A stretch of 64,000 nt of DNA from Rhodanobacteraceae bacterium (GTDB taxonomy: Bacteria; Pseudomonadota; Gammaproteobacteria; Xanthomonadales; Rhodanobacteraceae). Under the pieces are notes generated by a model. The model was not told the DNA's origin, ran no database searches, and saw only the letters and a list, made by a program, of their open reading frames with translations. Positions 11,829-55,693 of this stretch are shown one piece after another. The stretch lies in assembly GCA_004299705.1 (NCBI GenBank), contig SCQS01000038.1, forward strand, positions 1-64,000. Reading direction: 5' to 3'. The first letter of the stretch is position 1. Each line of letters starts with the position of its first letter. A program made the translations under genes and the position numbers.

Positions 11829-11904
11829 CGCCGTTGCCTTTCCCGATGTGTCCCGAGGAATCTGATTGGCCAGCGCCCCGCGAACGTGGTTCAATGGTGA
11901 CTTG

Positions 11905-11982
11905 AAGCGGGGGTGCCGCGCACATCGCGGCTGAGAAACACCCTTCGAACCTGGTTCGGTTAGTACCGATGTAGGGAGCTTC
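11905..11982 (+). promoter_or_regulatory. TPP riboswitch (THI element) of thiC
   Basis: The thiamine-pyrophosphate aptamer core is visible in order: GGGGGTGCC at about 11909-11917, GGCTGAGAAACACCC at 11929-11943, and CGAACCTGGTTCGGTTAGTA followed by CCGATGTAGGGAGC up to 11979. These match the conserved P2-P5 parts of THI boxes. It lies 135 bases before thiC on the same strand. Binding of TPP in the nascent mRNA leader should repress thiC; whether this acts by termination or by start-site masking is not clear. Confidence 0.93.
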
Positions 11983-12101
11983 GCCGCACGACGCCGCAGT
12001 CGTGTGTCCGGCGCCACCGCATTCAAGACGCGAATCCATTCGCAGCTGCCCGCACGCCATGTGTGGACCGTCCACGAAGCGGGTTCCCCGATCTTCCCTG
12101 A

Positions 12102-20091: not shown

Positions 20092-20880
20092 ATGCACCTG
20101 ATCGACATCGGCGCCAATCTCACCCACGACTCATTCCGCCGTGATTTCGATGCGGTGCTGGAGCGCGCGCGCAAGGCCGGCGTGGAGCGAATGGTCGTCA
20201 CCGGTGCCTCGCGCGAAGGCAGCCGGCATGCGCTGGAGCTGGCGCGTGCCCACGCCGGCGTGTTGTTTGCGACCGCGGGCGTGCACCCGCACCACGCGGG
20301 TGATTACGGCGCCGAAACGGACGCGCTGTTGCGCGAGCTGGCGCGCGATCCCGCGGTCGTCGCGGTGGGTGAAACGGGCCTGGATTATTTTCGCGACCTC
20401 TCGCCGCGGCCTGCGCAGCGCGCGGCATTCGAGAAGCAGCTCGCGATTGCCGTGGATTTGCACAAACCACTGTTCCTGCACCAGCGTGACGCTCACGCGG
20501 ATTTTCTCGCGCTGCTGAAAGCCGCCCGCGACCGCGTGCCCGCGGTGGTGGTGCACTGCTTCACCGACGAGCGTCGCGCACTGTTCGATTACCTTGACCT
20601 CGACTGCCACATCGGCATCACCGGTTGGGTTTGCGACGAACGCCGCGGCCTGCACTTGCGCGAATTGGTGCGCGAGATTCCGTCGAACCGTTTGATGCTG
20701 GAAACCGATGCGCCGTACCTGTTGCCGCGCGACATCCGTCCCCAACCCGCGGATCGGCGCAACGAACCGATGTACCTTGCGCACGTCTGTGAAGTGGTGG
20801 CAGGGTTGCGCGGGGAGGATCCGGAAATTACAGCGGCGAATGCCACGCAGGCGTCGGGCGCGTTTTTCGGCATTGCGTAG
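20092..20880 (+). CDS. tatD: TatD family metal-dependent DNase
   Basis: This 262-residue TIM-barrel hydrolase is of the TatD family, 3'-5' exonucleases acting on damaged DNA with divalent metals. It matches TatD proper rather than YcfH or YjjV: the start is 'MHLIDIGANLTHDSFRRDF', then 'TAGVHPHHA', 'VAVGETGLDYFRDLSP', 'FLHQRDAHADF', 'VVHCFTDE', and the hallmark 'LETDAPYLLPRD'. Metal-ligand His, Glu and Asp residues are in place. The start at 20092 aligns with the family N-terminus. It is divergent from hrpB with a 60-bp gap. Confidence 0.95.
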   Translation: MHLIDIGANLTHDSFRRDFDAVLERARKAGVERMVVTGASREGSRHALELARAHAGVLFATAGVHPHHAGDYGAETDALLRELARDPAVVAVGETGLDYFRDLSPRPAQRAAFEKQLAIAVDLHKPLFLHQRDAHADFLALLKAARDRVPAVVVHCFTDERRALFDYLDLDCHIGITGWVCDERRGLHLRELVREIPSNRLMLETDAPYLLPRDIRPQPADRRNEPMYLAHVCEVVAGLRGEDPEITAANATQASGAFFGIA

Positions 20881-20913: not shown

Positions 20914-21175
20914 CGTCATTCCGGGGCCGGCCAAAGGCCGGAACCCGACTGCGCAGGCAGGATGCCGGAGCGAACATCGGCGTAGCCGATGGCCCGAAGG
21001 GCGAGCCGCAGGGATGCGGTGAGTTTATCCATGTTGATCTTCGTGCCAACGAAGCAAGATCAAAATGGATTACTCGCGCCATCCATGGCGCTCGCCCTTC
21101 GGGCCGCCAAGGCGTTCGCGTTTGCAGTCCTGCAAACGCAGTCCGGATCACCGCTACGCGGTGTCCGGAATGACG
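20914..21175. repeat. Palindromic element with CGTCATTCCGG ends (family D)
   Basis: The 262-bp element is bounded by the inverted repeat CGTCATTCCGG (20914-20924) and CCGGAATGACG (21165-21175). Inside are further hairpins: GGCCGGCC-AAAGGCCGG, TTTGCAGTCCTGCAAA (about 21120-21136) and TTGATCTT...AAGATCAA. A shorter copy with the same ends lies within polA (54712-54821). Translation of the plus strand near both ends gives VVIPGPAKGRNP and SGSPLRGVRND, peptides almost identical to the insert in the PolA protein. No gene is credible in the 313-bp gap around it. Confidence 0.85.
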
Positions 21176-39153: not shown

Positions 39154-39265
39154 CCCTCTCCCTTCGGGAGAGGGGCAGGGGTCAGAGTACGCACGCGCGC
39201 TGAGGATGGTTTGTGCATATCCGAACCCTCACCCGCCCCTTCGGGGCACCCCCTCCCGAAGAGAG
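39154..39265. repeat. Intergenic hairpin repeats (CCCTCTCCC type)
   Basis: CCCTCTCCC-TTC-GGGAGAGGG (39154-39174) is a perfect 9-bp stem. A second cluster around 39225-39265 contains GCCCCTTCGGGGC and a degenerate CCCTCCC...GAGAGGG. They lie between the membrane-fusion and RND genes. The minus-strand GAGAGGG of the first stem also serves as the ribosome-binding site of the RND gene. Confidence 0.7.
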
Positions 39266-52490: not shown

Positions 52491-52614
52491 GAAATAAAAT
52501 GCCCCGAGAGCCAGGGGGGAGCTCTCGGGGCGGCGATGCCAAACCTGGGGAGGGGTTTGGCACCGGGGGTTCGCTCAGGGAGGTGAGTGAACCGGGACGC
52601 CGTTGCGTGCGTCC
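52491..52614 (-). ncRNA. sX13: sX13-like small RNA downstream of polA
   Basis: Read on the minus strand, three consecutive stem-loops have C-rich loops. They are GGTTCACTCA/TGAGCGAACC (52568-52593) with loop CCTCCC, TGCCAAACC/GGTTTGGCA (52537-52562) with loop CCTCCCCA, and GCCCCGAGAGC/GCTCTCGGGGC (52501-52531) with loop TCCCCCCTG. ATTTTATTT follows the last, giving a terminator. A -35 TTGAAC (52644-52649) lies 16-17 bp from a -10-like CATCTAA (52621-52627), which places the 5' end near 52614 and the length near 120 nt. Size, C-rich loops and position beside polA fit Xanthomonas sX13, which pairs with G-rich mRNA motifs. Confidence 0.75.
52500..52531 (-). terminator. Rho-independent terminator of the sX13-like RNA
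   Basis: The perfect 11-bp stem GCCCCGAGAGC/GCTCTCGGGGC at 52501-52531, followed on the minus strand by ATTTTATTT, ends the sRNA. On the plus strand it could also stop readthrough from the NatB-like gene 55 bp upstream, though no T-run follows there. Confidence 0.65.
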
Positions 52615-52870: not shown

Positions 52871-55693
52871 TTAATGTGCCTCGCCCCAATTGGCTCCGAC
52901 CCCGATATCCACCAGCAGCGGCACGCTGAGTTCCGCCGCACCCTGCATACGTTTGCGAACGCCGTCACAAACCGATTCGACGGCATCCGCGCGCACCTCG
53001 AACACCAGTTCGTCATGGACCTGCATCAGCATGTGGGCGTCGTCTTCACGCGACAGTAACCATTGGTCGATCGCGACCATCGCGCGCTTGATGATGTCGG
53101 CGGCGGTGCCCTGCATCGGCGCGTTGATCGCGGCGCGTTCGGCGCCTGCGCGCTGCGCCGCGTTGCGGGATTTCAATGCTTCCAGATACAGCCGACGTCC
53201 GAACAGGGTTTCCACGTAACCGTTGCGTTTGGCCTGTTCACGGGTCGTGTCCATGAACGTCTTCACGCCCGGATAACGTTCGAAGTAGCGCTGCACGTAA
53301 TCCTGCGCTTCGCTGCGCGGTATGCCGAGGCGTTGGGCCAGGCCGTGCGCGCTCATCCCGTACATCAGGCCGAAGTTGATCATCTTGGCCACGCGGCGCT
53401 GGTCGCTCGTTACCTGCTCGGGTGTGACGCCGAACACCTCGGACGCGGTGGCGCGGTGCACGTCCTGGTCGTGCCGGAAGGCGCGGGTCAGGCCGGGGTC
53501 GCCGGACAGGTGCGCCATGATCCGCAATTCGATTTGCGAGTAGTCCGCCGCCAGCACGCGCCAACCTTCCGGTGCGATGAAGGCTTCGCGGATGCGGCGG
53601 CCTTCCTCGGTGCGCACCGGGATGTTCTGCAAGTTCGGGTCGGTGGACGACAGGCGCCCGGTTGCGACGGCGGCCTGGTGGTAGCTGGTGTGCACGCGCC
53701 CGGTGCGCGGGTTGACCATCTCCGGCAACTTGTCGGTGTAGGTCGAACGCAGCTTCGCGTACTGCCGGTAGTCGAGGATCATGCGCGGCAATTCGTGCTG
53801 GTGCGCGATGGCTTCCAGCGCCTCCTCGTTGGTGGATGGTTGGCCGGTCGGGGTTTTCACCGCCACCGGCAGGCCGAGTTCGTCGAACAACAGCGCCTGC
53901 AACTGCTTGGGCGAATCGACGTTGAACTCGCGTCCGGCAAGTTTCTGCATATCGGTTTGCAGCGCGTGCATGCGTTTGCCGAGCCGCTGGCTTTGCTTGC
54001 GCAATGCGTCGACGTCGATCAGCACGCCGCGTTGTTCCATTCGCGCCAGCACCGGCACCAGCGGCATCTCGATGTCGGTGAAGACTTTTTGCAGCGTCGG
54101 TTGTTTTTCGAGTTGCGGCCACAGCGTCTGATGCAGACGCAGCGTGATGTCAGCGTCTTCGGCGGCGTAACGACCGGCGCTGTCGAGGTCGACCTGCGAG
54201 AACGAAATCTGCTTGGCGCCCTTGCCGGCGACGTCCTCGTAATGGACCGTGTCGTAATCCAGCCAGCGCTTGGCCAACGTATCCATGTCGTGGCGGTTGG
54301 CGGTGGCGTTCAGCACGTAGGATTCCAGCATCGTGTCGAACGCAATCCCCTGCACCGCGATGCCGTAGTTCGACAACACGTTGCAGTCGTATTTGGCGTG
54401 CTGGCCGAGCTTCGGGCGCTTGGCGTCTTCCAGGATGGGCCGCAGCGCCTGCAAGGTTTCGTCGCGATCGAGCTGCGCGGGCACGCCGGGGTAATCGTGG
54501 CCCACCGGGATATAGCAGGCACTGCCGGCCTCGACCGAGAACGACAGGCCGACCAGGCGCGCCTGCATCGGATCCAGCGAAGTGGTTTCGGTGTCGAAGG
54601 CGATCAGGTCGGCGTGGCGCAGTTTTGCCAACCACGCGTCGAGTTGTTTCTTCGTGGTGATGAGTTCGTAGTGATCAAGTGCGGAAAGTGCGGAACCGGA
54701 AGTCACACCTTCGTCATTCCGGACGCCGCGAAGCGGCGATCCGGAATCCGGCTTGTTGTCTGCATGTCTTGCAACGGCACTGGATTCCGGGTTCCGACCT
54801 GCGGCCGGCCCCGGAATGACGACGGATTTTGGATCGTCCGTTTCGGGTGTTTCCTTGTCCAGTTCCTTCAACGCCTGCCGAAACTCATAACGCGCATACA
54901 TTGCGCGCAGTGCGTCGACGTCGCGTTCGCGCAATTTCAAATCGCGCGGGCTTTGGTCCAACGCGACATCGGTCTTGATGGTGGCGAGTTGGCGCGACAG
55001 CGGCAGTTGCGTCAGGGTTGCGCGCAGGCTTTCGCCGATCTTGCCCTTCACGTCGTCGGCGTGCGCGATCACGCCGTCCAGCGAGCCATATTCGTTCAGC
55101 CACTTCGCGGCGGTCTTGGGGCCGCACTTGGGCACGCCGGGGATGTTGTCGATCGAGTCGCCCATCAAAGCGAGATAATCGACGATGTGCTCGGGCGGCA
55201 CGCCGAACTTTTCGATCACGCCGTCGCGGTCGAGCTTCGAGTGGGTCATGGTGTTGACCAGCGTCACACGCGGGCCGACCAGTTGCGCGAAATCCTTGTC
55301 GCTGGTGGACACCTCGACCTCGATGCCGTCCCCTGCGGCGTGCGTCGCCAGCGTGCCGATCACGTCGTCGGCTTCGACGCCCGCGACGCGCAGGATCGGA
55401 AAACCCAGCGCCGCGACGATCGCAAGCATCGGCTCGACCTGCGCGCGCAGGTCGTCCGGCATCGGCGGACGGTTGGCCTTGTATTCGGGGTACAACGCGT
55501 CACGGAAAGTGGGGCCAGGCGCGTCGATCACGAATGCGGTGAAATCGGGTTTCGCAGCCAGCGTCGCGCGCAGCATGTTGACCACGCCGAACAGCGCACC
55601 GGTCGGCTCGCCCGCGGCATTGCTGAGCGGTGGCAGTGCGTGAAAGGCGCGGTAAAGGTAACTGGAACCGTCGATCAGCGTGAGCGTGGTCAT
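52871..55693 (-). CDS. polA: DNA polymerase I with a palindromic-element insert
   Basis: The 940-residue enzyme fills gaps and removes primers. The 5'-3' exonuclease domain (1-~285) has 'SSYLYRAFHALPPL' and 'GVEADDVIGTLA'. The 3'-5' exonuclease domain (~340-530) keeps DTE at 367-369 and 'AAEDADITLRL'. The polymerase domain has motif A 'DYSQIELRIMAHLSG', motif B 'KMINFGLMYGM' and motif C 'QVHDELVFEV'. Residues 291-328, from VVIPGPAAGRNP to SGSPLRGVRNDE, are encoded by a family D palindromic element (54712-54821) placed in the linker between the two exonuclease domains. The frame is intact, so the polymerase should work. Confidence 0.97.
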   Translation of the reverse strand: MTTLTLIDGSSYLYRAFHALPPLSNAAGEPTGALFGVVNMLRATLAAKPDFTAFVIDAPGPTFRDALYPEYKANRPPMPDDLRAQVEPMLAIVAALGFPILRVAGVEADDVIGTLATHAAGDGIEVEVSTSDKDFAQLVGPRVTLVNTMTHSKLDRDGVIEKFGVPPEHIVDYLALMGDSIDNIPGVPKCGPKTAAKWLNEYGSLDGVIAHADDVKGKIGESLRATLTQLPLSRQLATIKTDVALDQSPRDLKLRERDVDALRAMYARYEFRQALKELDKETPETDDPKSVVIPGPAAGRNPESSAVARHADNKPDSGSPLRGVRNDEGVTSGSALSALDHYELITTKKQLDAWLAKLRHADLIAFDTETTSLDPMQARLVGLSFSVEAGSACYIPVGHDYPGVPAQLDRDETLQALRPILEDAKRPKLGQHAKYDCNVLSNYGIAVQGIAFDTMLESYVLNATANRHDMDTLAKRWLDYDTVHYEDVAGKGAKQISFSQVDLDSAGRYAAEDADITLRLHQTLWPQLEKQPTLQKVFTDIEMPLVPVLARMEQRGVLIDVDALRKQSQRLGKRMHALQTDMQKLAGREFNVDSPKQLQALLFDELGLPVAVKTPTGQPSTNEEALEAIAHQHELPRMILDYRQYAKLRSTYTDKLPEMVNPRTGRVHTSYHQAAVATGRLSSTDPNLQNIPVRTEEGRRIREAFIAPEGWRVLAADYSQIELRIMAHLSGDPGLTRAFRHDQDVHRATASEVFGVTPEQVTSDQRRVAKMINFGLMYGMSAHGLAQRLGIPRSEAQDYVQRYFERYPGVKTFMDTTREQAKRNGYVETLFGRRLYLEALKSRNAAQRAGAERAAINAPMQGTAADIIKRAMVAIDQWLLSREDDAHMLMQVHDELVFEVRADAVESVCDGVRKRMQGAAELSVPLLVDIGVGANWGEAH
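54712..54821. repeat. Family D palindromic element inside polA
   Basis: The 110-bp segment is bounded by CGTCATTCCGG (54712-54722) and CCGGAATGACG (54811-54821), the same ends as the intergenic element at 20914-21175. Next to the ends it shares GGGGCCGGCC and CGGAACCCG on one side and GCGGCGTCCGG on the other. It is read through in frame and adds about 37-38 residues to PolA. Confidence 0.88.

Follow-up and report, generated by a model that had tools for sequence, protein, structure and literature searches.

A CGTC-tagged palindromic dimer read in frame in polA, at an interdomain linker used by several kinds of repeat

Introduction

How does a dispersed palindromic repeat come to be translated within DNA polymerase I (PolA), and what keeps it there? 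The question is raised by a 110-bp segment of polA in the window, by which we mean the whole 64-kb stretch of DNA that was analysed. A sequence-only reading of the window had proposed that this segment has the same ends as an intergenic element, that it is translated as part of the linker that joins the 5' nuclease to the 3'-5' exonuclease, and that it resembles the Rickettsia palindromic elements (RPEs). REPs with a CGTC tag were defined by Di Nocera, De Gregorio and Rocco in 2013 (PMC3733652), and the available text of that paper suggests both tolerance in flexible linkers and a mutator effect for copies inside genes. Here we describe the anatomy of the polA element, its distribution in the genome and in the polA genes of relatives, and the recurrence of other repeats at the same linker.

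Results

An inverted dimer is read in frame in a predicted disordered linker of PolA

The polA gene occupies positions 52871..55693 on the minus strand as a 940-aa ORF with the expected Pfam domains (5_3_exonuc_N, 5_3_exonuc, DNA_pol_A_exo1, DNA_polI_exo1 and DNA_pol_A). An sX13 small RNA lies ~270 bp downstream of its stop codon (52495-52604, minus strand), and a TPP riboswitch is present at 11899-11994 on the plus strand; both are Rfam matches above the gathering score.

Inside polA, positions 54712..54821 (minus strand) hold an inverted dimer of a CGTC-tagged palindromic repeat, recognized by its 11-bp ends, its genomic matches and its in-frame reading. The 11-mer CGTCATTCCGG is found at 54712-54722 on the plus strand and at 54811-54821 on the minus strand, and again at 20914-20924 (plus) and 21165-21175 (minus), where it bounds another copy of the repeat, 262 bp long and located outside polA (20914..21175, no strand assigned). 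The common ends claimed for the two elements are thus confirmed. Viewed on the minus strand, two half-elements face each other across a spacer of ~30 bp. The first (CGTCATTCCGGGGCC...GGAACCCGGAATCC) spans 54782..54821 on the minus strand, and the second, in the opposite orientation (CGTCATTCCGGACGCCGC...GATCCGGAATCC), spans 54712..54749 on the plus strand; nhmmer detected them with E values of 2.3e-9 and 2.1e-5, respectively, using a profile built without the copies in the window. The stem of both half-elements opens with complementary A-T residues (ATTCC...GGAAT), and the CGTC tag is located at both ends of the dimer. By eye, CCA follows the first half and CCG the second; in the predicted fold, some of this sequence is paired across the spacer. 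As RNA, positions 54700-54833 have a predicted folding energy of -64.7 kcal/mol (z -4.58), which none of 200 shuffled sequences equalled.

The element starts with the third base of codon 291 and ends with the first base of codon 328; its 110 bp comprise 36 whole codons (108 bp in frame, residues 292-327) and one base on each side. The frame remains open and the Pfam domains of the gene are intact, as in the in-frame insertions of RPEs. The peptides VVIPGPAAGRNP and SGSPLRGVRND are both found in the translation of the polA ORF, and the plus strand of the intergenic copy, translated by eye, can be read as VVIPGPAKGRNP and SGSPLRGVRND, in agreement with the sequence-only reading. In an AF2 model of PolA (32 sequences, mean pLDDT 87.8), residues 282-339 (54677..54850, minus strand) are the sole run with pLDDT <50 and have no secondary structure. 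The residues of the element lie entirely within this low-confidence segment and outside the Pfam domains, that is, in the exposed or unstructured kind of position that is characteristic of RPEs. The proposed location between the 5' nuclease and the 3'-5' exonuclease holds, with a dispersed palindrome in frame in a linker that is modelled as disordered.

The repeat is dispersed in the genome and present in frame in other proteins

In the 64-kb window alone, CGTCATTCCGG has 4 matches at ≤1 mismatch (all exact) against a shuffled mean of 2.44, which is not beyond chance. The whole genome (G000, 3.62 Mb in 78 contigs) contains 129 exact matches of the 11-bp end (56 + 73) and 0 of the reversed pattern. 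The census of copies covered the stretches around 100 of the 129 matches and one further place (C68), and 73 places were examined. At least 28 copies in these stretches have both ends within 330 bp, and 17 of the 28 are 103-135 bp long; longer copies, such as that at 20914-21175, contain an extra inner module. The lengths of the 28 copies are spread evenly modulo 3 (10, 9 and 9), and their tags face outward by construction of the search. A target-site duplication of ≥3 bp, as expected of a MITE, was found in none of the 28. For the single-ended copies (L068 and L096), the limits of the element are nominal (120 nt). Two further 11-mer matches, in a T2SSE gene (L113) and a cupredoxin-like gene (L092), were judged to be chance matches and not copies of the element.

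At least 40 ORFs of ≥150 aa span one of the matched places, and 30 of them, including polA, were scanned with Pfam. Besides PolA, at least four Pfam-supported proteins carry in-frame copies, three of the four between Pfam domains. A GT4 glycosyltransferase (L068:1330-2736, minus strand) has a single half-element from ~aa 248, between its two domains; an ABC-F type protein (L095:985-3006, plus strand) has an 80-bp dimer at aa 336-363, between the ATPase domains; and a helicase with DUF3418 (L096:79-3999, plus strand), which we take to be of the HrpA type, has a repeat at nominal aa 618-658, between HA2_C and the OB fold. The fourth protein is a molybdopterin oxidoreductase with the copy inside its main domain. 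These four proteins indicate that tolerance of in-frame copies, often at domain boundaries, is general in this genome, and PolA is special only partly. An MmeI-like ORF (L067) may also carry a copy. In four other cases the element is more likely 5' of the true start of the gene, since it precedes the Pfam domain (L079, L085 and L098) or is located at its edge (L107).

The dimer is shared with two relatives

The genus set comprised 16 genomes including G000, and the linker was obtained from 15 (all but G008). The same kind of dimer is present in the same frame in G003 (85% PolA identity) and G015 (76%), and the linker of G006 contains an apparent degraded right half, a remnant undetected by the profile. 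A half-element profile built from other genomic copies matched only G000, G003 and G015 among 197 linkers, and the reversed linkers used as a control gave 0 matches. The element is not private to this genome, being present in G003 and G015 with a probable remnant in G006. The same residues in distant PolA proteins whose genomes lack the repeat, which would have spoken against a mobile element, were not found by the profile in the 197 linkers, and a PolA feature conserved in distant relatives is ruled out. The 11-mer itself occurs elsewhere in each of the 16 genus genomes, with 13 to 169 matches.

The elements of G000 and G003 match at 90 of 108 sites without a length difference, while the rest of the gene is 84% identical and its third positions 70%. 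The two have the spacer length and the left flank in common, and AAATCCG is found in the left flank of the elements of G000, G003 and G015. In the right flank, only two bases past the element agree among the three, and these are common among copies. This pattern of flanks and identities makes a single ancient insertion that many species have since lost or replaced as plausible as several insertions; the polA copy may be old, as the common spacer length and left flank of G000 and G003 allow. Since the linker is hypervariable among relatives and unalignable between species, no empty site could be aligned. The elements of G003 and G015 are also predicted to fold strongly as RNA, that of G003 with other pairing, and the intact outer arms of the polA copy in G000 could reflect selection or conversion.

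Several kinds of repeat recur at the PolA linker

Inverted repeats were scored in 210-nt windows of polA genes from the wider family, and a score of ≥13 was taken as strong. The linker window of 31/195 genes reached this score, and so did 9/4136 of the remaining windows in these genes; with a threshold of ≥15, the numbers were 26/195 and 1/4136. The 195 genes consist of 123 from the family (30 at ≥13) and 72 from outside it (one, a Nevskia record), and the linker effect is accordingly a feature of this family in the sample. Eight genes without an anchor, eight duplicate loci and G008 were left out of the 195. Of the eight genes without an anchor, five were scored separately: G001 scored 14 and 19 on its two contigs, L250 scored 12, and L277, L310 and L312 scored 8 each; L161, L175 and L201 have no score.

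MutL and DnaX were the only control genes (30 of each, 45 genomes searched), and their windows scored ≥13 in 1/482 and 4/436 cases, respectively. By eye, none of these five windows is one of the repeats under study; the four DnaX windows come from two genes and are of low-complexity G+C. The DNA upstream of the control genes contains two repeat-like matches (L357 and L371).

Classified by eye, the 31 strong linkers contain GTAG-type REP dimers (15), heptad repeats (9), CCTCTCCC-GGGAGAGG palindromes (4, plus the Nevskia one) and a fifth kind (2), and the kinds of repeat at the PolA linker, assigned in the same way, number at least five. The CGTC dimers (three, with the remnant besides) have short perfect outer arms and for this reason reach scores of only 10-12, which makes them weak on this measure taken alone; 4 of 21 control windows scored at least as high as the G015 linker. 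Within the genus, an intact dimer or a score of ≥13 is found in 11 of 15 linkers (CGTC 3, heptads 7, and G001). A CCTCTCCC-GGGAGAGG palindrome is also located at 39155-39173 of the window; this dispersed kind is found in the polA linker of four other family genomes.

The heptad inverted repeat (e.g., GGGACTC on the left and its complement on the right) occupies the linker of 7 other genus genomes and of G032, which belongs to another genus. Three heptad patterns were tried, and heptads are dispersed in 13, 8 and 7 of the 16 genomes, respectively. The heptad kind in polA differs between species (L034 of G004 and L037 of G009; G004 versus its sister G013). In G009, both heptad arms carry the same irregularity, suggesting that the two were replaced or converted together. 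A CGTC element of G000 (L085, contig C31, ~20301-20506) lies inside a heptad inverted-repeat pair, indicating that two kinds can nest. The linker of G001 contains a further inverted repeat that resembles the fifth kind. The two contigs of this draft (L119 and L123) differ at the linker, each with its own largely matching arms, perhaps because of a strain mixture.

A tree was built from 131 PolA proteins without the linker (128 family members and 3 outgroups). The repeat-kind labels fall on 34 tips with 30 Fitch changes, or on 35 tips with 31 when G001 is labelled; Fitch steps are changes of either sign, gains or losses. Since the tips are related and the changes may be losses, Fisher P values overstate the evidence.

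The GTAG kind in polA follows its genomic abundance

The GTAG kind was counted by the 19-mer GAGCGCACCCTGTGCGCGA in 157 family genomes, of which 52 were positive. Outside the genus of G000, 12 of the 113 genomes examined have the GTAG kind in the polA linker (assigned by eye, not always as the exact 19-mer). These 12 genomes contain 2 to 381 copies, whereas the median for the other 101 is 0. The GTAG kind occupies the linker in 9 of the 18 examined genomes that have ≥50 copies, and in 0 of the 67 that lack copies. Under uniform insertion, the 46 examined genomes that contain copies would yield 0.14 GTAG cases; the 12 observed represent an excess of ~88-fold, a figure that ignores shared ancestry. 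For the CGTC kind in the genus, 0.08 cases are expected and 3 were seen, and a single old event would be unsurprising (P 0.08). The four family genomes with CCTCTCCC in polA (G137, G090, G125 and G061) have 13 to 50 genomic copies, and many genomes without it in polA, including G000 (16), have similar copy numbers.

Discussion

We consider that the PolA linker is permissive, that mobile palindromes enter it time and again and persist there, and that a REP-type, CGTC-tagged dimer has been kept in frame in this way; we give this reading a probability of roughly three in four. It draws on the dispersal of the family, the in-frame reading at a predicted disordered position, the presence of the dimer in relatives, the excess of several kinds at the linker and the tracking of genomic abundance by one of them. 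The mobile palindrome would have entered, as an inverted dimer, the part of polA that codes for the disordered linker joining the 5' nuclease and the Klenow part, arriving by mobilisation and not by conversion. Harmful insertions would have been purged, and the polA insert seems to have been kept because it preserves the frame and falls in a linker where widely differing sequences are tolerated. PolA activity is presumably unchanged, and the insert would do no harm.

The convergence of several repeat kinds on one linker also fits an alternative that we regard as rather improbable, namely selection for the hairpin as such. At the boundary between the two folding domains, an RNA hairpin might slow ribosomes or tune the linker, and different repeats would supply it in different species. 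The intact dimers or strong scores in 11 of 15 genus linkers are in line with such selection, but the hairpin is not obligatory, since G002, G005, G010 and G006 score only 7, 8, 7 and 9, respectively, and 93 of the 128 family tips lack any labelled kind (35 of all 131 tips are labelled). The alternative gains from the heptad arms of G009, which match through their common irregularity, and from the fold of the polA element, which is better than 200 of 200 shuffles. It also gains a little from the strong predicted folds of the G003 and G015 elements and from the two contigs of G001, whose arms differ in sequence but are largely paired in each. However, such repeats have paired arms from the outset, and pairing by itself is poor evidence. 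A related proposal, unlikely though still worth weighing, is that the PolA linker is a true hotspot, in which unrelated palindromes are preferentially kept as a useful hairpin that, for instance, times co-translational folding. If so, selfish repeats would be interchangeable suppliers of one regulatory structure.

A change in PolA fidelity or processivity that favours a mutator state, in the sense of the speculation of Di Nocera et al. on repair-gene REPs (PMC3733652), is very improbable: repair genes are prominent among the decorated genes in the available part of that paper, and the helicase with DUF3418 is decorated here, but so are the glycosyltransferase, the ABC-F protein and the oxidoreductase, and the site of the insert is predicted to be disordered and belongs to no Pfam domain of PolA. 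An assembly error or a chance likeness (a chimeric contig, or coincidental ends in a GC-rich gene) is scarcely credible even in a draft genome where the matches at L092 and L113 were judged to be chance, because the reversed control of 0 in the genome and the profile matches to both halves rule out chance, and the dimer in the same frame in G003 and G015 in effect refutes an assembly error.

Under the preferred reading of repeated entry and survival, short mobile palindromes of at least five kinds repeatedly become protein at one site of a conserved replication and repair enzyme within one bacterial family. The old question of whether in-frame palindromes are tolerated or also useful becomes testable on PolA linkers, of which nature provides a series, some containing hairpins and others not.

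Comparison with known systems

GTAG REPs and REPINs are associated with RAYT transposases. Dimers of the GTAG type were recognized by eye in the linker of 15 other genomes, whereas the tag and the sequence of the window element are unlike theirs. The heptads in the polA linker of 9 related genomes resemble by eye the GGGAATC-type heptad G-quadruplex repeats of Xanthomonas (Rehm et al. 2015, PMC4692102), for which inverted pairs and an under-representation in coding regions are described; they are not the kind in the polA element of the window. The available text of that paper mentions neither polA nor DNA polymerase I.

RPE-4, RPE-6 and RPE-7 resemble the polA element in being in frame in conserved genes, in their solvent-exposed position and in the ATGAC motif, as described in the available part of a Rickettsia japonica paper (PMC3767692). 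They differ in belonging to Alphaproteobacteria and other genes, and they are linked to the polA element only via Di Nocera et al., who equated RPE-6 and RPE-4 with two CGTC-tagged REP families (PMC3733652). Published work thus gives some ground for the likeness to RPEs that the sequence-only reading had noted. The text available from PMC2635572 shows no RPE within DNA polymerase I. Orthologues of one gene carry different RPE kinds in the R. japonica paper, whose authors did not exclude hotspots (PMC3767692), and two Xanthomonas species have different REPs near one recB site (PMC3733652).

The closest match is with the CGTC-tagged REPs (PMC3733652). As described in the available text, these have the CGTC end tag (or TGTC or CCTC), the ATTCC/GGAAT stem opening and an unpaired CCA-like tail, and form spacer-bearing inverted dimers that are mostly intergenic, with some in genes. 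Their dimers are predominantly in the HH orientation, and the super-family is characterized by the lack of a dedicated transposase. The half-elements here are 33-50 nt long with a longer or nested stem, whereas the four described families (1 to 4) have an 8-9 bp stem and a 4-5 nt loop; some copies, e.g., L082 and L095, do show a short loop on a stem of 8 bp when inspected by eye. The polA element is close to the CGTC REPs, and we regard it as a relative and not a member of the four families. Its portrayal as an exceptional case is not supported, given the other in-frame copies in this genome and the REPs within DNA polymerase I and other repair genes published in 2013 (PMC3733652). Several repeat families in one linker are not reported in the available text of Di Nocera et al. 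(PMC3733652), and no account of several repeat families recurring at the PolA linker was found in the open-access literature, among the matches listed. The single polA case is of an already known kind, and the new part is the site, one PolA linker used by several kinds of repeat.
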